From: Pseudomonas asiatica
GTDB taxonomy: Bacteria > Pseudomonadota > Gammaproteobacteria > Pseudomonadales > Pseudomonadaceae
Reading direction: 5' to 3'
Assembly: GCF_009932335.1 (NCBI RefSeq)
Contig: NZ_BLJF01000003.1
Coordinates: forward strand, 868,001-932,000
Length of the DNA: 64,000 nt
This document shows positions 1 through 12,269 of this stretch, in pieces (positions within the stretch are counted from its first letter, which is position 1; each line of letters starts with the position of its first letter). The notes under the pieces are model-generated. The model was not told the DNA's origin and did no database searches. It saw nothing but the letters and a program-made list of their open reading frames with translations. Made by a program: the position numbers and the translations under genes.

Positions 1-1539
1 GATGGTACTGGCATGGTGACCAAAGTGCTTAAGCTGGTAGGAAATGAACGGCAGTCCTACAGCAGCCCTGAACATCTGGTTGGAGAGTGAGTGCCTCAGT
101 GTGTAGGGCGATACATCCAGCTCTTCGAGTTCGTCGAAGGTCACGGTGTTGGCCAAGAAAGTACAGAGTTGATGGGTTAACCCAGACCCGCTCAACGAGT
201 TGGCCTCATGTTGCATGCCTGGCTTCACGGTGTTCATGTTGGCGAACAGGTAGGGGTTCTGCTTGAACCGGTTCAGGATCCGCAGCACTTGGACTGCATC
301 CTTGACGATTGGGATCGCAACCCACTTGTCATCGAAAAGCTTCCTGAGGACTTCCTGATGTTTGATGACACCGCTGATGATGAGGTCGTGCCCGAATTCA
401 TCAACTGTCAGGCAGCTATCAACCAGACAACCGGCTAGCTCTGATGGCCTCATTCCAGTGTACTGACCAATGATGTAGCAGGCGCTGTTGTTGATGTGGG
501 TGAGGTACTCATACAGCTCGTTGTCCATTGGAGCTCGTGTCAATTTACACAGCGCTTCCTTGTCCTTCAGCATCCCAGGGTTTTGGGGTGACCAGTATTC
601 AGGCTCCAGCTTGTAGAGGAAGGGCTTGATCTGGAGGCCCGTGTAGCCCCTTGAGGTCATCCGGTATGCAACGTAGATGTCGTAATTTCTCCGCGTGATA
701 TTGGCGCTCCTGGCCTTCTGATATTCAGCCAAATCGAGCCGGCTCAGCGTGTACTGATCGCAGATGTCTTCCTTCAGCGCTCTGAGGAAATCGACAACGG
801 CGAACGAGCCCTCACGGGAGCACTTTTCGAAAATATGATTACTGAACCATTTTTTTCTGGTGCGGTTTTTTTTGTTGGTAAAGCTGTTGTACTTCCACTT
901 CAAGGCCTCCAGATCCACATAGGCCAAAGGCTTAGAAAATAGGTTTTCGACCAGGAAGTGAGATCGTAATACCTGGAAACCTTGAAGGGTTGGCCCCCTG
1001 AAGGCTCGGTCAAAGTGTTCAGCCCCCGCCCGATAGTCTTGTTCGGTGAAGTCGGCCAAGCTGAAGTGCGATCTTTCGAAGAAGTGATCCCCATGTTCCG
1101 CTCGCTTACGAGCACACATTTGATCGATAAACGGAATCACGGATTTGAACATGTCCAAGACTGAGTGAGGTTTGCGGCTCTTAGATTTTCGACTGAAGTG
1201 AAGAGCCCCTGGAATCTCCAGCACGCACAGCATGGCCATCTTCAGCTCGAACAGGATAGTGCTGTTAAGGCTCTCATAGACCCCGAAATCGATGCGCGAT
1301 TTGGCGCCCTGGATGTCCCTCGCAAGTGCGTGAGGCTCACCGTTGAAATCCCAGAGCATATCCTTTACGAGGCTCAATTTGCTGGCTGGGAGGTTCATCA
1401 GTGCTGCGAGCAGCTCAAGTGCGTTCACCCCATCGTTGGAGTGGGAGGTGACTGCGATGAGCTCGTTGCCCAAGTAGCCCAAGAACCGCTCGCGCACGGC
1501 TTTGATTTTGTAAATGAGGCTATCGAACCCGAGGATCAC
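1..1539 (-). CDS. Third tyrosine recombinase of the trio, C-terminus beyond the window
   Basis: An open frame of 513 codons runs uninterrupted from a GTG at 1539 to the window edge. The GTG overlaps the TGA of the preceding recombinase (GTGA), so translation is probably coupled. The last 150 residues show the integrase catalytic core: IIGQYTGMRPSELAG with the first catalytic Arg near residue 364, PYTLRHSLSNQM with Arg near 482, and LKHFGHHAST with the second His at about 509-510. The nucleophilic Tyr must lie just past the edge. The usual HxxR box reads YTLR, so the first His is replaced by Tyr, a substitution tolerated in some members of the superfamily. The N-terminal 350 residues are not recognisable to me and presumably hold DNA-binding and multimerisation parts. 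Confidence 0.85.
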   Translation of the reverse strand, partial: MILGFDSLIYKIKAVRERFLGYLGNELIAVTSHSNDGVNALELLAALMNLPASKLSLVKDMLWDFNGEPHALARDIQGAKSRIDFGVYESLNSTILFELKMAMLCVLEIPGALHFSRKSKSRKPHSVLDMFKSVIPFIDQMCARKRAEHGDHFFERSHFSLADFTEQDYRAGAEHFDRAFRGPTLQGFQVLRSHFLVENLFSKPLAYVDLEALKWKYNSFTNKKNRTRKKWFSNHIFEKCSREGSFAVVDFLRALKEDICDQYTLSRLDLAEYQKARSANITRRNYDIYVAYRMTSRGYTGLQIKPFLYKLEPEYWSPQNPGMLKDKEALCKLTRAPMDNELYEYLTHINNSACYIIGQYTGMRPSELAGCLVDSCLTVDEFGHDLIISGVIKHQEVLRKLFDDKWVAIPIVKDAVQVLRILNRFKQNPYLFANMNTVKPGMQHEANSLSGSGLTHQLCTFLANTVTFDELEELDVSPYTLRHSLSNQMFRAAVGLPFISYQLKHFGHHASTI

Positions 1540-3968
1540 AGGGAGACCGTCTCAATCAGAGGGCTAGGGATGATGTGCTCTGCCAGACGACGAGCCTCAT
1601 CCAGTTGCTCCGCTGTGAAGCCGTGGTCAGACGGCGTGAGGATACTTTCCAGTACCTCAAGGTTCTCGCGGATGACAGCGCCATAGGGTGTTTCTGCCAC
1701 GTTGCTTGTGGACATAATCGAGGTGTAGTCCCACTGCATGGCAAAAAGGTCGGGCAGATTCGACACAGTGATGATGGAGTTGCTACAGGACAGGCACTTG
1801 TTGAGCAGCGAGCACTTACTGCCTTTTTTGTAGCTCGGCAGCCTTTTAATTTCATCAGGAGGGTTAAGCGCATCCTTGCAACTGACGAGGCCCGTCCGAA
1901 TGATGATCGGCGATGAGGTTGCCGCAGGGGGAGTTGGCTTGACCTGCTGGCTATCGCGAATAATCGTGCCTTTGTGAATTTGGGTGAGCGCTTTGGTGTT
2001 GACCTCACGAGCTGTTTTGTTGAATTCGAGCTTGTCGAGATAGCTCTGGGTGGCTTGTATCGACTTGTGCCCAAGTATTACCTGGATTTCCCTGACCGAT
2101 AGGCCTAGCGCTACGAGGTCGGCCACGAGGCTCGGGCGCAGTCGAGAAGCCGAGATATTCAGCGGCTGCCCGTCCTCAGTTTTGAGGTCGTGATCCATGG
2201 CTAACTGGTTCATCACATTGTTGATGACAGTTGAGTCCTCGAACGACTTCACCTTCCGGAATTCGGATTGCTTCTGCGACTCGTAGATGAACAGCCTCTC
2301 TTTGATTGGCCCTTCAGCGCGCTCGCGAATGTGGTGGGTCAGGTAGATGACCTCGTCGAAGATCTTCTTGATCTCAATGCTTTGTGCCCGTGAGTACCAT
2401 GTCCAATCCGCGTGCATCATGTCGAGATGAAGAACCTTCCCCCCACCTGAGCGCACTTTCCAGTAACGCAGGTATGGGCGATGGGTCACCTCGTGGCGCT
2501 CGACGAAATCATCGATGTCCAAGCTTTTGAGAGAGTCCGCGTTCAACCCCGTCACCTGCGCAAGGCGTGTGATGTATGGCGCCAGCATCCTCGAGGTAAC
2601 ATGGTAAATAACACCCCAGCTGGCATACGTCTCAGCGATTCCTAGCCCGCCGATCTTCAGCAACCGCACAAAGGCTTGCTCATATTTGTCATCAGGATCA
2701 GCCGACCACCGGCTAATCATCCTGCCGTTGAGCTTGTTCTCAAATATCCAGCGAGCGTTCTCTAAGGTGGCCATACCTCTCACAAGGTATCCGTCCTCAC
2801 CCAACGGATCACTGCCACCATGGAAGGGTACATAGTCCTTTGCTAGCTCGTTAGTCTGTAGCCGCTCCATGTCACAAGCTTGCTGGATCGCCGTTCGTGC
2901 GTACTTCGGGTATGGGCGATATTCATCCGTCTCTCGAGCGGTGTTGAATCCTTCCACATCAATAAATGATGTGAGGCCCATTCCGCGAATCTTCACTGCT
3001 CGCTTGAGCATCGAACGGACTGCCGACAAGACACCCTGTGAGTAGAGTGACGTAAGTATGTTGGCCTCCATTTGATCGGTGAGGTACTTCCTGAAACGCG
3101 TCAGGTAGTGTGCTGTAACGTACTCCCGAGGATCCTCATTTCCCGTGAAGCCAACCTCACTCAGATGCAGGGTCACCAGTCGGAAACCATCACTATAATT
3201 CTGCTGGCCGGATGCGGATTTCGACTTCAGCGACGCCGCAGCAAACATGTGCAGGAGCTTGCTGAAGGGCCTATTGGGATCCTCCACCAGGTCTTCGTAC
3301 TTTGAGAGTCCGATGAGCCTGAGCTCAGCGAGCGCCTTAGTCAGGGAGTCCTTTGGCGCGGCCTGCTGTTTTTTAAGCTCGGCTTCGACCTCTCGTTCCT
3401 TACAGTTTTTGTAGTCTGCCTTGATGACGCCAAGCCGCGTGAGGTCAGTGAGGATGTCTTGGAAGGTCTGCTCAACGATGACGAATTTGGAGCGGGCCCA
3501 CTTCAGGTTTTTCATCCCGTCGACCTGGAACAAGCTGGCCTTCGACGAGATGGTATTGCCGAATACTGGGACGTTTTGCTTCTCTGCCTCTGTCAGGCCT
3601 TCGTACCAGCAGAGAAGCTTCCGGCGCCACTCATTCGCGATTGAGGGCTGGTCGGGGATCACGATCTGCTCCTCGATCATCCGCTGGATGATCGAGTCGA
3701 GGATGTCTTCCCTCGCGTTGAAGGTGTTGCCGCTTGTCTCCAGTTCATCCTTGAGATACGTGTAGGCTGGGCTCAGCTTTCCTCTCTGCGAGAGCTGCAC
3801 GTTCAGGAGGGATTGGCGACTGCTCTTGATCTGCGTGGCCCACGCCTCAATTGCCTCGGTGACTTCGGACTCTTTCCGCTTGGGACGCCTGGCTTGGTCG
3901 GAAGCCTCAGATTCGCTGCGAGATTGACCGTCTGCCTGATCCTCAGGCGGCTGATGAGTGGTGCTCAT
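1536..3968 (-). CDS. Second (large) tyrosine recombinase of the trio
   Basis: Large recombinase of about 810 residues. The catalytic domain sits in the second half: SASRLRPSLVADLVALGL supplies the box II Arg, then LGHKSIQATQSYLDKL supplies the His and the presumed nucleophile Tyr (about residue 643). The position of the first Arg reads TGLNADSLKSLD, that is Asn where most relatives have Arg. After the catalytic Tyr comes an extension of about 165 residues with a C-x5-C-x2-C cluster (roughly residues 719-728) that could bind zinc. I prefer the ATG at 3968 because GGGAG stands 10 bases upstream; an in-frame ATG at 4046 has no Shine-Dalgarno and would add 26 residues. The stop overlaps the next gene by 4 bases. 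Confidence 0.85.
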   Translation of the reverse strand: MSTTHQPPEDQADGQSRSESEASDQARRPKRKESEVTEAIEAWATQIKSSRQSLLNVQLSQRGKLSPAYTYLKDELETSGNTFNAREDILDSIIQRMIEEQIVIPDQPSIANEWRRKLLCWYEGLTEAEKQNVPVFGNTISSKASLFQVDGMKNLKWARSKFVIVEQTFQDILTDLTRLGVIKADYKNCKEREVEAELKKQQAAPKDSLTKALAELRLIGLSKYEDLVEDPNRPFSKLLHMFAAASLKSKSASGQQNYSDGFRLVTLHLSEVGFTGNEDPREYVTAHYLTRFRKYLTDQMEANILTSLYSQGVLSAVRSMLKRAVKIRGMGLTSFIDVEGFNTARETDEYRPYPKYARTAIQQACDMERLQTNELAKDYVPFHGGSDPLGEDGYLVRGMATLENARWIFENKLNGRMISRWSADPDDKYEQAFVRLLKIGGLGIAETYASWGVIYHVTSRMLAPYITRLAQVTGLNADSLKSLDIDDFVERHEVTHRPYLRYWKVRSGGGKVLHLDMMHADWTWYSRAQSIEIKKIFDEVIYLTHHIRERAEGPIKERLFIYESQKQSEFRKVKSFEDSTVINNVMNQLAMDHDLKTEDGQPLNISASRLRPSLVADLVALGLSVREIQVILGHKSIQATQSYLDKLEFNKTAREVNTKALTQIHKGTIIRDSQQVKPTPPAATSSPIIIRTGLVSCKDALNPPDEIKRLPSYKKGSKCSLLNKCLSCSNSIITVSNLPDLFAMQWDYTSIMSTSNVAETPYGAVIRENLEVLESILTPSDHGFTAEQLDEARRLAEHIIPSPLIETVSL

Positions 3969-4099
3969 TCTAGGCTTGCTCCCGATCCAGGTGAACGCAG
4001 AAGGACGTGGTGATTCCTCCCGAGTGGTAACCAGAATGAATACCATGACGGTGCGTTGGTCAAGCCGTAGAAATGTATAAAAACCTTATGAATCAATGA

Positions 4100-4130
4100 G
4101 TTAAGAGTATGCTGCTGGCATACCCTTAAC
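4100..4130. promoter_or_regulatory. 13-bp inverted repeat between the first two recombinase genes
   Basis: Arms at 4100-4112 and 4118-4130 (GTTAAGAGTATGC / GCATACCCTTAAC, one mismatch) flank a 5-base loop. It lies in the 276-base AT-rich gap (3969-4244) between two otherwise tightly linked recombinase genes. It is not followed by a T-run on the minus strand, so it does not look like a simple terminator. A binding site for one of the recombinases or a regulator is possible, as is an RNA structure controlling the second gene. The rest of the gap shows no gene. Confidence 0.5.
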
Positions 4131-4244
4131 GCTAAGCGCTTGTCCTATCAGGCATTTTTCGTGGCTGAGATGGCGGAATGTGTCAAAAGCAATTCGCGAA
4201 ATTTTTTTTATCTGAGGCAGGGCCGGAGGGGTTTACGAGGCGGA

Positions 4245-5507
4245 TCATTTTTTATCTCCGGTCTTGATGCGAATGGTCGTCCTCTCGCGTAGAACGTGCA
4301 TCTCTCCGCACTTGGTTTTGATGAGGGAATCTGGCGTGCAGAGCTTTTGGTAGATGTCATGAGGGATCTGCGCATACCCCTCAGTCGTGGTGGTATACGA
4401 GTGGCCATGCCCTATCGAAAGCATTCCCAGGCGCTGGAAATAATCCTCTCCAAGATCAGGGCTTGTGAGCAGAAGGTACGCAGAACCATGTCGGAACTTG
4501 TGTGCTGAGATCTTTCGCGTGATCTTGCGTGACTTTCGCGCCCGCTTGGAGAGGCGCTCAAACAGCTTTTCAACGCTCTTAGTGGTGTAAGGCTTCCCAT
4601 GTGAGTTGAAGAAAGCAGGCGTCTCTTTCGGGTCTCTGATGCGCTGGCTATAGCGGTGGTACAGCGGCGTCTTCTGGTAGTTCTCGATGCGTTCCAGTGT
4701 CGTCCTGCTGACGAGCGTTATCCTTGGGACTATTTGATTTTTTTTGCCCTTGCTGCCTTGGACATGCAAGGGGCTGTAGTCCGCATTCACCGGTATGTTG
4801 CACTCAGCGGAAACGTACTGGAGCTTCTGGTACTCAAGCGCATCGCGAATGTGCTGAAGCGTTATGCGGGGAACCTCAGACTCTCGAATGCCCGAGTCGT
4901 AAATCAGCTGCAGCATGCACCTCTCACGTTCTGATTTTGTATGCAGGATCATCTGTTCAAGCTCAAGCATGCTGCATGGCTGAACGATTGCTTTGATATT
5001 CGCCTTACCTGTTCGAATCGGCCCGTGCTCATAAGGATTGTCAGTCCGGAGCGGAGGCTTACCATTCAGGCTGATGCACAGATGGTGGCTGAAGAAATGG
5101 TTGTAGGCGGCATCTCGGCCTTGCACCGTTTTGGGAGCAAGGCCCGCACCATCCAGGCGACCCAAGTACACCTCTAGGCTACCTAACCCGATACTCAGCA
5201 GGAGATCGTCTCGGCGGGAGTTCTCGTACTCGGGTTTGGTCTTCTGGTCTTGAAGTAGGTACGAAATACGCCTGGCATAGGACAGAACGGTTTTGTCTGC
5301 CTTTGAGACGTTCCGGTAGTTCCGGCACAGATAGGAGGACACCAGAGGGAGGAGCTGTTCATCGTCATCAATCAGCCCGCACCCAGTTACCTTCACGGAT
5401 GGTTCACTGCCTTCTGGCTGAGCTAGGAACTGTTCTCGGTATTTGCCATTGGCAAGGATGGAATTGCTTAGGTCAAGATCTCTGTCTCGCACCGCAATCA
5501 CTTTCAT
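4245..5507 (-). CDS. First tyrosine recombinase of the trio, next to the element end
   Basis: A complete 420-residue site-specific recombinase. All core residues are visible: Arg208 in YDSGIRESEV, a beta-hairpin Lys region GSKGKKNQIV (about 251-260), His336 and Arg339 in SAHKFRHGSAY, His367 in LSIGHGHS, and the nucleophile Tyr378 in TTEGYAQIP. An N-terminal SAM-like core-binding part covers about residues 50-150. The gene starts 120 bases inside the element boundary and reads away from it into the element. It is the most canonical enzyme of the three. The ATG at 5507 has only a weak ribosome site (GGGCC), so initiation may be inefficient. Confidence 0.9.
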   Translation of the reverse strand: MKVIAVRDRDLDLSNSILANGKYREQFLAQPEGSEPSVKVTGCGLIDDDEQLLPLVSSYLCRNYRNVSKADKTVLSYARRISYLLQDQKTKPEYENSRRDDLLLSIGLGSLEVYLGRLDGAGLAPKTVQGRDAAYNHFFSHHLCISLNGKPPLRTDNPYEHGPIRTGKANIKAIVQPCSMLELEQMILHTKSERERCMLQLIYDSGIRESEVPRITLQHIRDALEYQKLQYVSAECNIPVNADYSPLHVQGSKGKKNQIVPRITLVSRTTLERIENYQKTPLYHRYSQRIRDPKETPAFFNSHGKPYTTKSVEKLFERLSKRARKSRKITRKISAHKFRHGSAYLLLTSPDLGEDYFQRLGMLSIGHGHSYTTTTEGYAQIPHDIYQKLCTPDSLIKTKCGEMHVLRERTTIRIKTGDKK

Positions 5508-5609
5508 ATTCTGAGGCCCTGCACATCGACTCAGGAAGGTCGGTGGGAAGTATGGCTCATGGCTCAGATTCTGGAGGGGGTGAAGCTAAGGGCTATCGGA
5601 TTGTGCAGT

Positions 5610-6152
5610 TCAGTGTAGGGGGGTAGAAATCACTGCCTCGGCGGCGTGGTCGGTGCCGATCACCAGGCCTGCGCGGGCACCGGCGATGGTGTACTGGGCG
5701 ACCATGCGGGTGCGTGCCTTGACGTTGCCGACCACGAAGTCCACCAGCGTCGGCGAGCCGTTCTTCAACTCCACCACTTCAGCCGCAAGCGCCCGTACTG
5801 CCGGGGCGATATCCACGGTGTGCACTTCGTCGGCCTTGATCACTTCCAGGCACGCCTGGGCGTCATGCTCGTCATGCTGGACCTGGTACGGCAGGCGTAC
5901 GGCGATGAAGGTGTAGGCCTTGTCACCGGTTTCGGCGCGCAGCTCGTTGATGGCGCGCTGAGCGAGCAGGGCGGCGGTCAGTGAGTCGACGCCGCCGCTG
6001 ATGCCCAGCACCAGGGTCTTGAGCCGGGCGTTGGCCAGGCAATCCTTGATGAACGCCACGCGCCGGGCGACTTCGGCCTCGAGCGCGGCGGCGTCGGCGA
6101 ACGGCGGCTGTACCTTCAGCGCCTGGGCAATCTCTTGCTGAACCGCTTGCAT
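5610..6152 (-). pseudogene. nadE: NH3-dependent NAD synthetase, truncated by the element
   Basis: NadE amidates nicotinic acid adenine dinucleotide to NAD, the last step of both de novo and salvage synthesis. The first 174 residues are clean, including the ATP-pyrophosphatase P-loop SGGVDS at residues 52-57 and the GTDHAAEAV stretch. The intact Pseudomonas protein is about 275 residues. Here the frame continues with six foreign codons (ISTPLH) and stops. About 100 C-terminal residues, which help form the substrate and ATP sites, are missing, so the product should be inactive. The gene starts 3 bases after the pncB stop, with AAGGAG inside the pncB end, so the two form an operon. The missing 3' part may lie at the far end of the element. 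Confidence 0.9.
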
Positions 6153-6155
6153 GGG

Positions 6156-7361
6156 TTACTCCTTGCTGGGGACTTTGAATACATGGCGCATGTAGGCGAC
6201 GAAGTTCTCGTCGCGGCATTGGGTCTTGGCGGCTTCGTCCGAGATCTTGGCTACCGGTGCGCCGTTGCAGTCGGTCATTTTAAGCACGATGCTCATCGGG
6301 GCCACACCCGGGATGTCACAAGTCAGGTTGGTGCCGATGCCAAAGCTGACGTTGATGCGACCGCGCAGGGCTCGGAAGATTTCCAGCGAGCGGGTCAGGT
6401 TGAGGCCGTCGGAAAACACCAGGGTCTTGGTCATCGGGTCGATACCCAGTTTCTGGTAATGGGCAATGGCTTTTTCCGCCCAGGCCACCGGTTCGCCCGA
6501 GTCGTGGCGCAGGCCGTCGAACAGCTTGGCGAAGTACAGGTCGAAATCGCCAAGGAAGGCATCCATGGTGATGCAGTCGGTCAGGGCGATACCGAGCAGG
6601 CCGCGGTACTCGCGCACCCAGCAGTCCAGCGCGGCGATCTGGCTGTCGATCAGTCGCGGGCCGAGTTGCTGGTGGGCCATGATCCATTCATGAGCCATGG
6701 TACCCAGCGGCTTGATATCCAGTTTCCATGCCAGGTCGACGTTGCTGGTACCGACGAAGCGGCCCGGGAAATCGTCGCGCAGCACGCGCACCACTTCTTC
6801 CTGCACGCGGCTGGAAAAGCGCCGGCGGGTGCCGAAGTCGGCCACCTGCAGTTCGGCCAGTTCATCTTCGTTGGCATGCGCGCGCAGCCAGTCGAACTTG
6901 CGGTATAGCTGGTCGCGGGCCTCGGCCAGGCGCATGCGCGGGTGCAGGTGGCGGTTGCGCACTTCGCTGATGATCGCCAGCAGCGGCACTTCGAACAGGA
7001 TCACATGCAGCCATGGACCTTTCAGGCGCAGGAACAGCTGGTCGTTTTCTATCCCCAGGCGTACGTAGCGCAGGTTGAAGCGGAACAGGCGCAGAAAGCG
7101 CAGGAAATCTGGCTTGAGAAAGCTGATGCGTTCGAGAAAGGCCAGCTGGCCATCATCCAGGGTGAGGTCGCTGAGCAGTTCTAGCTGGTTGCGGATCTCG
7201 CCGAGGTATGGGCGCAGGTCCTCGCCGTTGCGACAGCGGAATTCCCATTCGACGTCGGCATCCGGGTAGTTGTGCAGCACGCCCTGCATCATGGTGAGTT
7301 TGTAGAAGTCGGTGTCGAGCAGGTTGTGCACGATGCGCTCGGCGAATGCGCTCTCGCTCAT
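6156..7361 (-). CDS. pncB: Nicotinate phosphoribosyltransferase
   Basis: PncB makes nicotinate mononucleotide from nicotinate and PRPP, the entry step of the Preiss-Handler NAD salvage route. The protein is about 401 residues, normal for the family. Recognisable stretches are [20 protein letters not shown] at the N-terminus, the [20 protein letters not shown] region around the active-site His, and the phosphate-binding IGTNLTCD near the C-terminus. The start at 7361 is preceded by GGAG at good spacing; a longer in-frame extension upstream runs through a REP sequence and is not credible. nadE follows after 3 bases, so salvage and the final amidation step were meant to be co-expressed. Confidence 0.93.
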
Positions 7362-7440
7362 CAATGGGGCTCCGGAAGCGGCGAATGGCGGACATTGTGC
7401 CAGCCTTTTTGGCCTTGTTGTGCCTGTTACGGCCTTATTG

Positions 7441-7535
7441 ACGGCAAGCCAGCGCCCACAAGTAACCCACAGGGCCGGAATTTGCAGTGTTCCTGTAGGA
7501 GCTGGCTTGCCGGCGATAGGGCCGGAACTGCCAAA
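7441..7535. repeat. REP pair, GGCAAGCCAGC type
   Basis: Two inverted copies of a GCCGGCAAGCCAGCTCC-like palindrome flank a short spacer, in the 524-base gap between pncB and livK. The left copy has drifted. The rest of the gap holds the nitrogen-regulatory sites listed separately. Confidence 0.8.
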
Positions 7536-7593
7536 ACAGAGGTGTTTTTTCGTGCACCAGCTAGCCTTGAAACGGTGCCGCCTGTAGCAGTCG

Positions 7594-7610
7594 CGCACCA
7601 GCTGTGTGCA
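7594..7610 (+). promoter_or_regulatory. Candidate NtrC-like enhancer site upstream of the liv operon
   Basis: CGCACCAGCTGTGTGCA resembles the NtrC consensus TGCACCA-N3-TGGTGCA: one half matches 6 of 7 positions, the other is weaker. A further perfect TGCACCA half-site is at 7553-7559. Both lie 200-260 bases upstream of a sigma-54 promoter, a normal distance for an enhancer. The assignment is by eye. Confidence 0.4.
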
Positions 7611-7810
7611 GTTCGGTGACGTCCGCTGTTACAGGGTGGTTGCACGTAAACACTTGCCAGGGTTGCAATGATGGCACTCGACGGTTGCTCCTTGTCTGTA
7701 CGTCTGGTGGCGCCTGCCGCGTGGCAGACGGTTGCACGCTCAATAAAGAAAAGGCCGTCGGTCGCCTGCAGGCAACCTGCGCAGTGTGTTTTGCCGGAAG
7801 ACAAAACCTA

Positions 7811-7826
7811 TGGCACGGCCCTTGCT
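7811..7826 (+). promoter_or_regulatory. Sigma-54 (RpoN) promoter of the liv operon
   Basis: TGGCAC-GGCCC-TTGCT matches the -24/-12 consensus TGGCAC-N5-TTGCW at every position. It stands 60 bases upstream of the livK start, so transcription would begin near 7838. RpoN control of a branched-chain amino-acid importer fits nitrogen regulation through NtrC. Confidence 0.85.
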
Positions 7827-7885
7827 CTGAGCACAGGGCTGAGAAGTTGTAGTGCCAACCAAAAAAACTCTAGGAGCACCACCTC

Positions 7886-9022
7886 ATGTCGCAGACGTTT
7901 TACAAGAAAGGTTTCCTGGCTCTGGCCGTAGCTACGGCACTGGGTGTTTCTTCGTATGTTCAGGCCGACGTCAAGATCGGTGTAGCGGGCCCGATGACCG
8001 GGGCTAACGCAGCGTTTGGCGAGCAGTACATGAAAGGTGCGCAGGCAGCGGCCGACAAGATCAACGCCGCCGGTGGCGTGAATGGCGAGAAAATCGTGCT
8101 GGTCAAGGGCGATGACGCCTGCGAGCCGAAACAGGCCGTGGCCGTGGCCAACCGCCTGGTCGACCAGGACAAGGTGATCGGCGTGGTAGGCCACTTCTGT
8201 TCTTCCAACACCATCCCGGCCTCCGAGGTGTATGACGAGGCTGGCGTCATCGCCATCACCCCGGGCTCCACCAACCCACAGGTTACCGAGCGCGGTCTGG
8301 GCGCCATGTTCCGCATGTGCGGCCGTGACGACCAACAGGGCATCGTCGCCGGCGATTACATCGTCGACGTGCTCAAGGGCAAGAAAGTCGCGGTGCTGCA
8401 CGACAAGGACACCTACGGCCAAGGCCTGGCCGACGCGACCAAGGCACAGCTGGAAAAACGCGGCGTCAAGCCGGTGCTGTACGAAGGCCTGACCCGCGGC
8501 GAGAAGGACTTCAGTGCCGTGGTCACCAAGATCCGTTCCACCGGTGCCGACGTTGTCTACTTCGGCGGCCTGCACCCGGAAGCCGGCCCGCTGGTACGCC
8601 AGTTGCGCGAGCAGGGCCTGAAGGACGTCAAGTTCATGTCCGATGACGGCATCGTCACCGACGAACTGGTGTCCACCGCTGGCGGCGCGCAATACGTCGA
8701 TGGCGTGTACATGACCTTCGGCGCCGACCCGCGCCTGCTCCCGGACAGCAAGGCGGTAGTGGAGGAGTTCCGCAAGGCCGGTACCGAACCTGAAGGCTAC
8801 ACCCTGTACGCCTATGCCTCGCTGCAGGCCCTGGCTGCCGCGTTCAACGGCGCCAAGTCGAACAAGGGCGAGGACGCTGCCAAGTGGCTCAAGGCCAACC
8901 CGGTGCAGACCGTCATGGGCGAGAAAAAGTGGGACTCGAAGGGTGACCTGACCGTGTCCGACTACGTGGTCTACCAGTGGGATGCCCAAGGCAAGTACCA
9001 CCAGCTGGAAAAACAAAAATAA
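7886..9022 (+). CDS. livK: Branched-chain amino-acid ABC transporter, periplasmic binding protein
   Basis: A 378-residue periplasmic receptor of the BraC/LivK type (type I fold). A signal peptide ends about residue 27 (SSYVQA then DVKIGVAGPMTG). The Gly-Asp-Asp-Ala-Cys and GHFCSSNTIPASEVY stretches are typical of the amino-acid pocket, and AITPGSTNPQVTERG follows. It is the first gene of a five-gene operon and has a strong ribosome site (TAGGAG). A gap of 156 bases with a GC-rich hairpin separates it from livH, which usually means the receptor is made in excess over the membrane parts. The likely substrates are Leu, Ile and Val, perhaps also Ala. Confidence 0.92.
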   Translation: MSQTFYKKGFLALAVATALGVSSYVQADVKIGVAGPMTGANAAFGEQYMKGAQAAADKINAAGGVNGEKIVLVKGDDACEPKQAVAVANRLVDQDKVIGVVGHFCSSNTIPASEVYDEAGVIAITPGSTNPQVTERGLGAMFRMCGRDDQQGIVAGDYIVDVLKGKKVAVLHDKDTYGQGLADATKAQLEKRGVKPVLYEGLTRGEKDFSAVVTKIRSTGADVVYFGGLHPEAGPLVRQLREQGLKDVKFMSDDGIVTDELVSTAGGAQYVDGVYMTFGADPRLLPDSKAVVEEFRKAGTEPEGYTLYAYASLQALAAAFNGAKSNKGEDAAKWLKANPVQTVMGEKKWDSKGDLTVSDYVVYQWDAQGKYHQLEKQK

Positions 9023-9033
9023 CAACGGCCCAC

Positions 9034-9059
9034 GGCCCGGGCGCGTCAGCCCCCGGGCC
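9034..9059 (+). terminator. GC-rich hairpin after livK, likely attenuator
   Basis: GGCCCGGG (9034-9041) pairs with CCCGGGCC (9052-9059) around a 10-base loop. No T-run follows, so it may act by partial termination or by protecting the livK mRNA end rather than as a full intrinsic terminator. Confidence 0.5.
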
Positions 9060-9178
9060 AAAGCCCCGCGGTACCTGTCTTTATCCGTAGATCTGCACAG
9101 TACTGCGCTGCGAGGGCCGCCTGTTCCAGGCCCGCCGTGGTCGGCGCTCGTGCAATCTCAATCAGGTGAGATTGCGTT

Positions 9179-10093
9179 ATGGATGGTATTTTCCTGCAGC
9201 AACTGGTCAACGGCCTGACCCTCGGGTCGGTCTATGGCCTGATCGCCATCGGCTACACAATGGTCTATGGCATCATCGGCATGATCAACTTCGCGCACGG
9301 CGAGGTGTACATGATTTCCGCGTACCTCGCGGCGATCAGCCTGGCATTGCTGGCTTATTTCGGTATCGAGTCGTTCCCCCTGTTGATGCTGGGCACCCTG
9401 TTGTTCACCATCGTCGTCACCGGCGTGTACGGCTTCACCATCGAACGCATCGCCTACAAACCCCTGCGCAACTCCACCCGCCTGGCACCTCTGATCAGTG
9501 CCATCGGCATCTCGCTGATCCTGCAGAACTACGCGCAGATCAGCCAGGGCGCCCGCCAGCAAGGCGTGCCAACCCTGCTGGAAGGCGCCTGGCGTGTCGA
9601 AGTGGGCACCGGCTTCGTGCAACTTACCTACACCAAGATCTTCATCCTGGTGGCAGCCTTCGTTGGCATGGGCCTGCTCACCTATGTGATCAAGTACACC
9701 AAGCTCGGCCGCATGTGCCGTGCCACCCAGCAAGACCGCAAGATGGCCTCGATCCTGGGCATCAACACCGACCGGGTGATTTCCTACGTGTTCGTCATCG
9801 GTGCGGTTATGGCTGCCCTGGCCGGCGTGCTGATCACCATGAACTACGGCACCTTCGACTTCTACGCCGGCTTCATCATCGGCATCAAGGCGTTTACCGC
9901 CGCGGTGCTCGGCGGTATCGGCTCGCTGCCAGGCGCCATGCTCGGCGGGATCATCCTGGGCATTTCCGAGTCGCTGTTCTCCGGCCTGATCAACTCCGAC
10001 TACAAGGACGTGTTCAGCTTCTCGCTGCTAGTGATGATCCTTATCTTCCGCCCACAAGGCCTGCTGGGTCGCCCGCTCGTGGCTAAGGTGTGA
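9179..10093 (+). CDS. livH: Branched-chain amino-acid ABC transporter permease LivH
   Basis: A 304-residue inner-membrane permease with about eight hydrophobic segments. The N-terminal LVNGLTLGSVYGLIAIGYTM and the GMINFAHGEVYM motif are hallmarks of the LivH/BraD family. It pairs with LivM to form the channel energised by LivG and LivF. The stop TGA overlaps a GTG codon at 10090, but the better livM start is the ATG six bases further on. Confidence 0.95.
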   Translation: MDGIFLQQLVNGLTLGSVYGLIAIGYTMVYGIIGMINFAHGEVYMISAYLAAISLALLAYFGIESFPLLMLGTLLFTIVVTGVYGFTIERIAYKPLRNSTRLAPLISAIGISLILQNYAQISQGARQQGVPTLLEGAWRVEVGTGFVQLTYTKIFILVAAFVGMGLLTYVIKYTKLGRMCRATQQDRKMASILGINTDRVISYVFVIGAVMAALAGVLITMNYGTFDFYAGFIIGIKAFTAAVLGGIGSLPGAMLGGIILGISESLFSGLINSDYKDVFSFSLLVMILIFRPQGLLGRPLVAKV

Positions 10094-10095
10094 AC

Positions 10096-11397
10096 ATGTC
10101 CATTGCCAAAACTGCCTCTGTTCCTGAAACCAAAAGTTTCGATATCAAACGCAGCCTGCTGGAGACCATCGTCGCCGGCCTGCTGGCACTCATCGTGTTC
10201 GGTCCTGTCGTTGGCGTGGTGCTCGACGGCTACACCTTCAACGCCGAGCCGCGGCGTGTGGCCTGGCTGGTTGGCGGGGTGATGCTGGGGCGCTTCCTGC
10301 TCAGCCTGTACCTGCAGACGGCCGCCGGCTCGCGCATGCTCCAGGGCTTCGAAAGCGGTGGCTCGGGAGTGCATGTGCGCGCGCCGAACTACGTATCGCG
10401 GCTGCGCTATATCATCCCGGCGCTGGTGGTGATCGCCATTGTCTTCCCGATCTTCGCCAACAAGTACCTGCTGACCGTCGTCATCCTCGGCCTGATCTAC
10501 GTGCTGCTGGGCCTGGGGCTGAACATCGTGGTCGGCCTGGCCGGCCTGCTCGACCTGGGCTATGTGGCGTTTTATGCCATCGGCGCATATGGCCTGGCGC
10601 TGGGTTATCAGTACCTTGGCCTGGGCTTCTGGAGCGTGCTGCCACTGGCGGCCATAGCTGCGGCGCTGGCGGGGTGCATACTCGGTTTCCCGGTGTTGCG
10701 GATGCACGGCGACTACCTGGCGATCGTGACTCTGGGCTTCGGCGAGATCATCCGCCTGGTGCTGAACAACTGGTTGTCGTTCACCGGCGGCCCCAACGGC
10801 ATGCCGGCACCGGCACCGACCTTCTTCGGCCTGGAGTTCGGCCGTAGGGCCAAGGACGGTGGGGTACCGATCCACGAGTTCTTCGGCTTCGATTACAACG
10901 CCAACCTCAAGTTCGTGTTCATCTACGCGGTGCTGTTTATCGTCGTGCTTGCAGTGCTCTACATCAAGCATCGCCTGACCCGCATGCCGGTCGGCCGTGC
11001 CTGGGAAGCGCTACGCGAAGACGAGATCGCCTGCCGCTCGATGGGCCTGAACCACGTACTGGTCAAGCTCTCGGCGTTTACCCTGGGGGCTTCCACCGCA
11101 GGTTTGGCCGGGGTGTTCTTTGCCACCTACCAGGGCTTCGTCAACCCTTCGTCGTTCACCTTCTTCGAGTCGGCGCTGATCCTGGCCATCGTCGTGCTCG
11201 GTGGTATGGGCTCGACCGTAGGCGTGGTGATCGCCGCCTTCGTGCTGACCGTGGCACCCGAGCTGCTGCGCAGCTTCTCCGAATACCGCGTGCTGCTGTT
11301 CGGTGTGTTGATGGTGCTGATGATGATCTGGCGACCGCGTGGGCTGATCCGCATCAGCCGTACCGGTGTGACCCCGCGTAAAGGAGTGGCGCCATGA
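10096..11397 (+). CDS. livM: Branched-chain amino-acid ABC transporter permease LivM
   Basis: The second permease subunit, about 433 residues. An N-terminal part of about 110 residues with two hydrophobic segments precedes the conserved LivM core, as in other proteobacteria. The core holds LGLGLNIVVGLAGLLDLGYV and the cytoplasmic loop with LREDEIACRSMGLN that contacts the ATPases. The ATG at 10096 has AAGGTG just upstream; a GTG at 10090 overlapping the livH stop would add two residues. The end overlaps livG by ATGA. Confidence 0.94.
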   Translation: MSIAKTASVPETKSFDIKRSLLETIVAGLLALIVFGPVVGVVLDGYTFNAEPRRVAWLVGGVMLGRFLLSLYLQTAAGSRMLQGFESGGSGVHVRAPNYVSRLRYIIPALVVIAIVFPIFANKYLLTVVILGLIYVLLGLGLNIVVGLAGLLDLGYVAFYAIGAYGLALGYQYLGLGFWSVLPLAAIAAALAGCILGFPVLRMHGDYLAIVTLGFGEIIRLVLNNWLSFTGGPNGMPAPAPTFFGLEFGRRAKDGGVPIHEFFGFDYNANLKFVFIYAVLFIVVLAVLYIKHRLTRMPVGRAWEALREDEIACRSMGLNHVLVKLSAFTLGASTAGLAGVFFATYQGFVNPSSFTFFESALILAIVVLGGMGSTVGVVIAAFVLTVAPELLRSFSEYRVLLFGVLMVLMMIWRPRGLIRISRTGVTPRKGVAP

Positions 11398-12269
11398 GCG
11401 ACGATATCATTCTCTCGGTCGACAACCTGATGATGCAGTTTGGCGGCATCAAGGCGCTCAGCGATGTCAGCCTGAAGGTCCGGCGCAACCAGATCTTCGC
11501 CCTGATCGGCCCCAACGGTGCGGGCAAGACCACCGTGTTCAACTGCCTGACCGGGTTTTACAAGGCCAGTGGCGGGCGCATCGAGCTGAACGTGCGCGGT
11601 AGCCACACCAACGTCATCCAGCTGCTCGGCGAGCGCTTCCAGGCGGCAGACTTCGTCTCCCCGGCGCGCTTCGCCAACCGCATGTACTACAAGATGTTCG
11701 GCGGTACCCACTTGGTCAACCGCGCCGGCCTGGCACGCACCTTCCAGAACATTCGCCTGTTCAAGGAAATGTCGGTGGTGGAGAACCTGCTGGTGGCGCA
11801 GCACATGTGGGTCAACCGCAACCTGCTGGCCGGGGTACTCAACACCAAGGCCTACCGCAAGGCCGAGAGCGACGCGCTGGACCACGCGTTCTACTGGCTG
11901 GAAGTGGTCGACCTGGTCGATTGCGCCAACCGCCTGGCTGGCGAGTTGTCGTACGGCCAGCAGCGCCGCCTGGAAATCGCCCGGGCCATGTGCACGCGGC
12001 CGAAGATCATCTGCCTGGACGAACCGGCGGCTGGCCTGAACCCACAGGAAACCGAGGCCCTCAGCCGCATGATCCGCGTGCTGCGCGACGAGCACGACAT
12101 TACCGTGGTGCTGATCGAACACGACATGGGCATGGTCATGAGCATTTCCGATCATATCGTGGTGCTCGACCACGGCAACGTGATTGCCGAAGGCGCGCCG
12201 CAGGATATCCGCCACAACCCGACGGTGATCGCCGCCTACCTGGGTGCAGATGAAGAGGAACTGGTATGA
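11394..12269 (+). CDS. livG: Branched-chain amino-acid ABC transporter ATPase LivG
   Basis: A 291-residue nucleotide-binding subunit. Walker A is GPNGAGKT (about residues 39-46), the signature LSYGQQRRLEIARAM is present, and Walker B is IICLDEPAAGLNP, followed by the switch His in IEHDM. The long insert between Walker A and the signature is usual for LivG. It overlaps its neighbours on both sides by ATGA, so synthesis of the membrane complex is translationally coupled. Confidence 0.95.
   Translation: MSDDIILSVDNLMMQFGGIKALSDVSLKVRRNQIFALIGPNGAGKTTVFNCLTGFYKASGGRIELNVRGSHTNVIQLLGERFQAADFVSPARFANRMYYKMFGGTHLVNRAGLARTFQNIRLFKEMSVVENLLVAQHMWVNRNLLAGVLNTKAYRKAESDALDHAFYWLEVVDLVDCANRLAGELSYGQQRRLEIARAMCTRPKIICLDEPAAGLNPQETEALSRMIRVLRDEHDITVVLIEHDMGMVMSISDHIVVLDHGNVIAEGAPQDIRHNPTVIAAYLGADEEELV

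Follow-up and report, generated by a model that had tools for sequence, protein, structure and literature searches.

Essential genes are usually seen as closed to insertion, and the locus described here raises the question of how a Pseudomonas can live with a large mobile island seated within its gene for NAD synthetase, nadE. The answer favored here, with a probability of about 0.86, is that the island inserts into nadE and destroys the short NadE of the host while a distant NAD synthetase of its own takes over the essential reaction; this class of island seems to land in an essential gene and to pay with a substitute.

The window, a stretch of 64,000 nucleotides (C3:868001-932000 of a 5.97 Mb genome in three contigs), contains in its region 1..5631 the right end of the island, the rest of which lies to the left (Table 1). 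Alignment of an uninterrupted nadE (L027) against both flanks matched the right flank up to window position 5629 and the left flank from C3:832216, the two alignments overlapping by 6 bases, and placed the break at window 5628/5629, after codon ~175 of nadE; since both flanks could be mapped in this way, the size of the island is ~41.4 kb. The earlier note on this DNA had proposed a site-specific element end inside a host gene, at the edge of a lower-GC block and with the cargo to the left, and each of these points was borne out: GC is 0.505-0.559 in window 1-5000 vs 0.578-0.641 in 6001-12000, the left nadE fragment was reached, the empty site was mapped at both junctions, and the same nadE codon is used in all seven islands of this class. 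The cut falls inside the codons of a conserved catalytic motif, and the open reading frame of the N-terminal nadE piece extends to 5610, inside island sequence. The junction spacer has its counterpart at C3:832211-832216, and the island ends carry imperfect short direct repeats and also form an imperfect inverted pair, with CCCCCC then TGCACA on one side and TGxGCA then GGGGGG on the other. The 34-base target was identical at 26-34 of 34 positions in all 19 intact nadE genes compared.

Table 1. Coordinates of the island end and the interrupted host gene within the window.
Feature	Position in window	Strand	Evidence
ginA, tyrosine recombinase, 420 aa	4245..5507	-	ORF, hmmscan, alignment
ginB, tyrosine recombinase, 836 aa (810 from Met27)	1536..4046	-	ORF, hmmscan, alignment
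ginC, 5' part of 709-aa recombinase-like gene, continuing left to C3:867410	1..1539	-	ORF, hmmscan, alignment
Island terminal motif TCTACCCCCCTACACTGAACTGCACAAT (minus strand)	5600..5627	-	Kept in 7/7 islands, few changes
Junction spacer, gtgatt on minus strand (attB gtgatg)	5628..5633	-	Both junctions aligned with empty site
Host nadE N-terminal piece, codons 1-175	5629..6152	-	98% identity to codons 1-176 of intact NadE; empty-site junction

Leftwards on the minus strand, nadE codons 1-175 are followed by the terminal motif and by genes of 420, 836, 709 and 169 residues. The three recombinase genes in a row of the earlier note, the last two of them overlapping, are present as described (420, 836 or 810 from Met27, and at least 513 residues), and the proposal that three unequal tyrosine recombinases belong to one module held, as they are ginA, ginB and ginC of a ginABCD operon. 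The third gene has 513 residues inside the window, is open at the window edge and reaches 709 residues with the left-side sequence added, while ginD lies after it, just outside the window; ginB and ginC overlap by 4 bases (1536-1539), and the ginC/ginD overlap is also of 4 bases. Regarding domain content, Phage_integrase matched ginA above the cut-off (hmmscan, E 2.2e-10), ginB just below the cut-off of 27.1 bits in hmmscan (E 6e-6, 26.6 bits) and above it in the genome scan (28.6 bits), and ginC below it in both (18.6 bits, E 0.0017, in hmmscan), and ginD gave weak helix-turn-helix-like matches only. In an alignment of 11 sequences, six from the nadE class and five from a second class in thyA, GinA residues R208, K253, H336, R339, H369 and Y378 were kept in all 11, and the first catalytic Arg was replaced by Asn in all 11 GinB sequences and present in all 11 GinC sequences.

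At the left end of the island, an intact gene starts with an ATG at C3:832571, ~355 bases away from the junction, and runs inward for 543 residues; it encodes an NAD synthetase of the glutamine-dependent type, with NAD_synthase and CN_hydrolase domains. The protein scores 796 bits against NCBIfam PRK13981 (cut-off 479), aligns over its full length to the solved enzyme 5kha, is 28% identical to the short NadE broken by the island, and is the only intact NAD synthase found in its genome. This gene and ginD had been missed by the earlier note because they are outside the window. For pairs with unsaturated dS, dN/dS was 0.02-0.05 for the substitute vs 0.07-0.17 for ginA-C. A search for the 34-base target within the island gave a best match of 22/34, a value inside the spread obtained for 60 shuffled islands (mean 20.6, maximum 23), and the spot in the substitute that aligns to the target is identical at 7 of 34 positions. 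No promoter was found upstream of the substitute when sought by consensus. Compared with 20 other Pseudomonas long NadEs, those of the islands group together as a separate, single clade (support 0.974), so that the gene appears to have been captured once in the nadE subfamily and not seven times independently. The long NadE of G369 has a Ser-Thr repeat of ~25 residues between the two domains.

Regarding recurrence, a genus draw of 398 genomes, one per species, gave GinB relatives (E<=1e-10) in 26 and long NadE (E<=1e-60) in 25, and the two sets share five genomes, namely G000 (the own genome), G086, G322, G332 and G369. These are the genomes with the closest GinBs (own, 76, 55, 83 and 58% identity, in that order) and also with the closest NadEs (own, 97, 84, 96 and 83-92%). 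All five show the break in nadE at one and the same codon, with gin adjoining the N piece and long NadE the C piece; in G086 the two pieces of nadE are found on separate contigs. In the remaining 21 GinB genomes the short nadE is full-length and long NadE is absent at E<=1e-60. GinB was not matched in any of the remaining 20 long-NadE genomes, 12 of which show no short NadE, so that a Pseudomonas can apparently live with the long type alone. The suggestion that native long NadE is a fossil of such islands was considered and dropped, the gene not being within 12 kb of pncB, azurin or a LOG gene in four of four genomes (G241, G027, G316 and G042). A GinA profile search of named genomes returned four loci, two of them new (P. 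fluorescens HK44 and Pseudomonas sp. S31) and two taken as G086 and G369 and not counted again; HK44 and S31 have the same nadE split and the same replacement, giving seven of seven islands, from the own genome and six others. With PF02540, one intact NAD synthase was detected per genome in all seven, which is the island copy; besides the nadE pieces, other matches were weak, lay in frames of 378-535 residues and were taken as other PP-loop enzymes. When 398 genomes drawn from across the family were searched with the GinA profile, no further nadE-class member was detected in other genera; the matches comprised eight at 389-442 bits and G484 at 169, as against 824-883 for the nadE class. A syntenic recombinase module in other genomes, named in the earlier note as support for a family, thus exists in the seven nadE-class islands and in the thyA class.

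An ORF comparison of the seven islands, two of which were covered in parts only, showed that ginA, ginB (cut short in G086) and the NAD synthetase are common to all and that other cargo varies. Both ginC and ginD were detected in six of the seven, G086 lacking them on the part read, and G086 is a decayed nadE island with the substitute still intact. A 175-residue ORF is partially matched, at 33-68% identity, in five of the six other islands, so that NadE is not quite the sole cargo gene in common, and a block next to the replacement is common to four of the seven. Islands with both ends on one contig measure 41.4, 33.4, 31.6, 21.3 and 42.6 kb. In G332, a single-contig genome, the nadE pieces are 790 kb apart and in opposite orientation, an arrangement from which simple excision could hardly regenerate an intact gene. 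Between G000 and G332, identity is 63% for the nadE N piece and 96% for the island NadE, which points to movement of the islands between distant hosts, and in G000 and G322 the host nadE genes are 97% alike but ginA-D only 55-61%, which suggests that hosts of one clade took different islands.

In the cargo of the own island, a Pfam scan of 20 of the 36 ORFs detected no transfer, capsid or relaxase genes and one IS66 transposase, and thus, among the ORFs scanned, no sign of the ordinary prophage or ICE that the earlier note had named as an alternative. A DUF2326/AAA protein adjoining the replacement gene (C3:834270-835964, L026:15270-16964) is common to four of the seven islands and has a PADLOC match to the candidate defense protein PDC-M68B (E 4e-17). 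Genes at C3:845019-848439 and 854337-861064 encode a luciferase-like monooxygenase, flavin reductase, aldehyde dehydrogenase, a ribBA-like gene product, CobW, an amidohydrolase and a purine/cytosine-type permease, and this cargo looks like flavin-dependent catabolism. Two further modules were seen elsewhere in this genome. One (L201, C3:386918-392360, flanks to 381059 and 393608) has four genes of 426, 571, 613 and 145 residues, has no NCBIfam name beyond a weak XerD match, and seems to be an insertion of ~11 kb in a gene that we take to be comM; comM is not known as essential, which makes this locus a natural comparison without a substitute. The other (L200, C3:320622-326205) has a first integrase that is split in two (214 and 219 aa), followed by genes of 537, 800 and 119 aa.

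Islands of the same layout with GinB identity of ~35-43% sit in thyA, the gene of thymidylate synthase, as seen in 20 upstream regions read, in 10 of which a gene presumably lgt is visible before thyA; the thyA label was confirmed by profile. A PF00303 search detected an N piece, a C piece and one intact ThyA in all 23 thyA-class genomes (19 from the GinB search of the 398 genus genomes and four from the family-wide GinA-profile draw), and one intact thyA without any piece in seven controls (0/7 split). ThyA lies directly behind ginD in the 15 genomes with the parts on one contig, with a 4-base overlap in 12, a 9-base gap in two and a shortened ginD in one (G079); in the 12, ThyA is the fifth, overlapping gene of the gin operon. 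Host thyA is cut at the same place in 15/15, across three host types. The N piece and the island ThyA are 36-39% identical in eight genomes, 73-78% in four and 46% over a short stretch in one further genome (13 of the 15 measured). A ThyA at least 79% identical to the island copy occurs in 20 of the 398 genomes, 19 of them with GinB and the other being G384, which keeps a truncated ginC, ginD and an intact ThyA; ThyA at 70-74% identity was taken as the host gene without individual inspection in 64 of 84 genomes. As further observations, the ginB ORFs of G077 and G486 (L173, L181) are 1410 aa long, with a second partial GinB match upstream in G077, as if duplicated and fused, and G291 has a tandem pair of thyA N-terminal matches before the gin operon (C155:24401-25673).

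These two classes bear on the possibility that the element is an ordinary GInt, a genomic island with three integrases, whose NAD synthetase is passenger cargo with a meaningless match to the target. GInt cargo is diverse and often metabolic (PMC5385486), and the seven copies go back to one capture, but other cargo turns over while the NAD synthetase is kept at the same end in seven of seven islands with nadE broken in all, and the second class shows, independently, thyA paired with ThyA in 23 of 23, which makes passenger cargo very improbable. Equally improbable is that both nadE pieces are made and assemble into a working short NadE, leaving the island gene as an extra. The nadE pieces are open in all seven hosts, and both thyA pieces are open in 14 of 15, the N piece being broken only in G376; as the host pieces are mostly undecayed, decay gives no proof that the host gene is dead, and it was given up as such after apparent stops in G263 and G141 proved to lie beyond the junction, both pieces being open there. 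The nadE cut, however, falls inside the catalytic motif, and the C-terminal piece lacks its own start region; in the thyA class stand the broken N piece of G376 and the remnant in G384, around which 80 kb contained no ginA, ginB or host thyA piece. The split-protein idea had been raised earlier for tmk, where it was tested and rejected (PMC10653934).

Thus, displacement of the host enzyme by an island-borne substitute is the preferred reading; it draws on the split, the site, the sole intact NAD synthase, the recurrence in seven of seven islands, the strong conservation of the substitute and the parallel thyA class, as seen at sequence level, and from these we infer that the substitute is expressed and sufficient, that the island is still mobile and that the arrangement stabilizes it. 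The gin proteins would insert the island circle at the conserved catalytic codons of the essential gene, insertion into nadE would destroy the short NadE of the host, and the cell would live if the incoming substitute were expressed. The substitute, having no attachment sequence, would be no target itself, so that insertion would be survivable and island loss costly: exact excision would restore nadE, any other loss would be lethal, and the island would be kept. The gin genes and the substitute of the nadE class read inward from opposite island ends, and would therefore be divergent neighbors in the circle, whereas in the thyA class the substitute is inside the gin operon.

It is rather probable that multi-recombinase islands (GInt, SE-like and perhaps Tn554-like) generally follow a strategy of breaking and replacing, each lineage using the catalytic codons of one essential gene and a distant substitute without an attachment site; catalytic-motif codons may have been chosen as targets because they are among the most conserved DNA across hosts. 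Each insertion would then displace an essential host enzyme and make the island hard to lose, and decaying islands would leave a foreign enzyme behind. If the reading is true, catalytic codons would explain site choice and host range, bacteria would have a concrete way of exchanging an essential enzyme for a distant counterpart, and the strains concerned would have an essential function located on a mobile element.

Regarding class, three recombinases without large cargo are typical of RIT elements, and the 41-kb size and the cargo speak against that type. Membership in another multi-recombinase class (SE, RIT or Tn554-like) is scarcely probable, since several tyrosine recombinases and a 6-base spacer also occur in SEs (PMC10214605) but the element agrees with GInts in gene order, in size, in cargo and in having three integrase-like genes and a small one. 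By its layout and ends, the element is a GInt: three integrase-like genes and one small gene are ordered as in ginABCD, the operon lies at one island end adjoining the attachment site with the cargo behind ginD, and the single target, the large variable cargo and the imperfect direct repeats with a 6-base spacer all agree with the published family (PMC5385486). The little-described family suggested by the earlier note is therefore one already published. In GInts, all four gin genes are required for excision and integration (PMC5385486). The targets given in that paper were left whole, either at gene ends or by expression from an island promoter, and no replacement cargo is described there, whereas here the target is broken and a substitute is carried. 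The first catalytic Arg is reported there as missing in GinC, in contrast to its absence from GinB and presence in GinC here; its absence from GinC is not treated there as defining for GInts.

No nadE or thyA case of this kind was found in the literature searched, most subscription journals and supplementary tables being outside reach, nor by term search for nadE and thyA in the GInt and SE papers (PMC5385486, PMC10214605); a P. putida killing island was dropped as nadE-related, the "nade" text match being an author's name.

Among known systems, strand-biased circularizing integrative elements (SEs) resemble the island in having four core genes (in SEs intA, tfp, intB and srap), large recombinases, a 6-base spacer and inverted repeats at the joint, but they are smaller (median 15.7 kb) and form a sequence cluster separate from GInts (PMC10214605). 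Tn552-II is a tnpABC element with a target-gene-like gene, tgl, for which a rescue role is suggested (PMC12486829); it differs in its size of 9 kb and in its YolD-like or plasmid target, essentiality not being shown there, and tgl keeps an att copy, unlike the island substitute. An experimental precedent is the tmk island of P. putida KT2440, a large island that splits an essential gene and whose own terminal gene, dNMPK PP_1964, was shown by experiment to supply the lost function; its authors call it a "first-case example" and mention homologous islands in other genera (PMC10653934). It differs in target and substitute and in its module, which is described there as comprising a TetR/AcrR-like regulator, a pair of integrases and a protein of unknown function, and which looks SE-like. 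With tmk, nadE and thyA, three target/substitute pairs are now available side by side.
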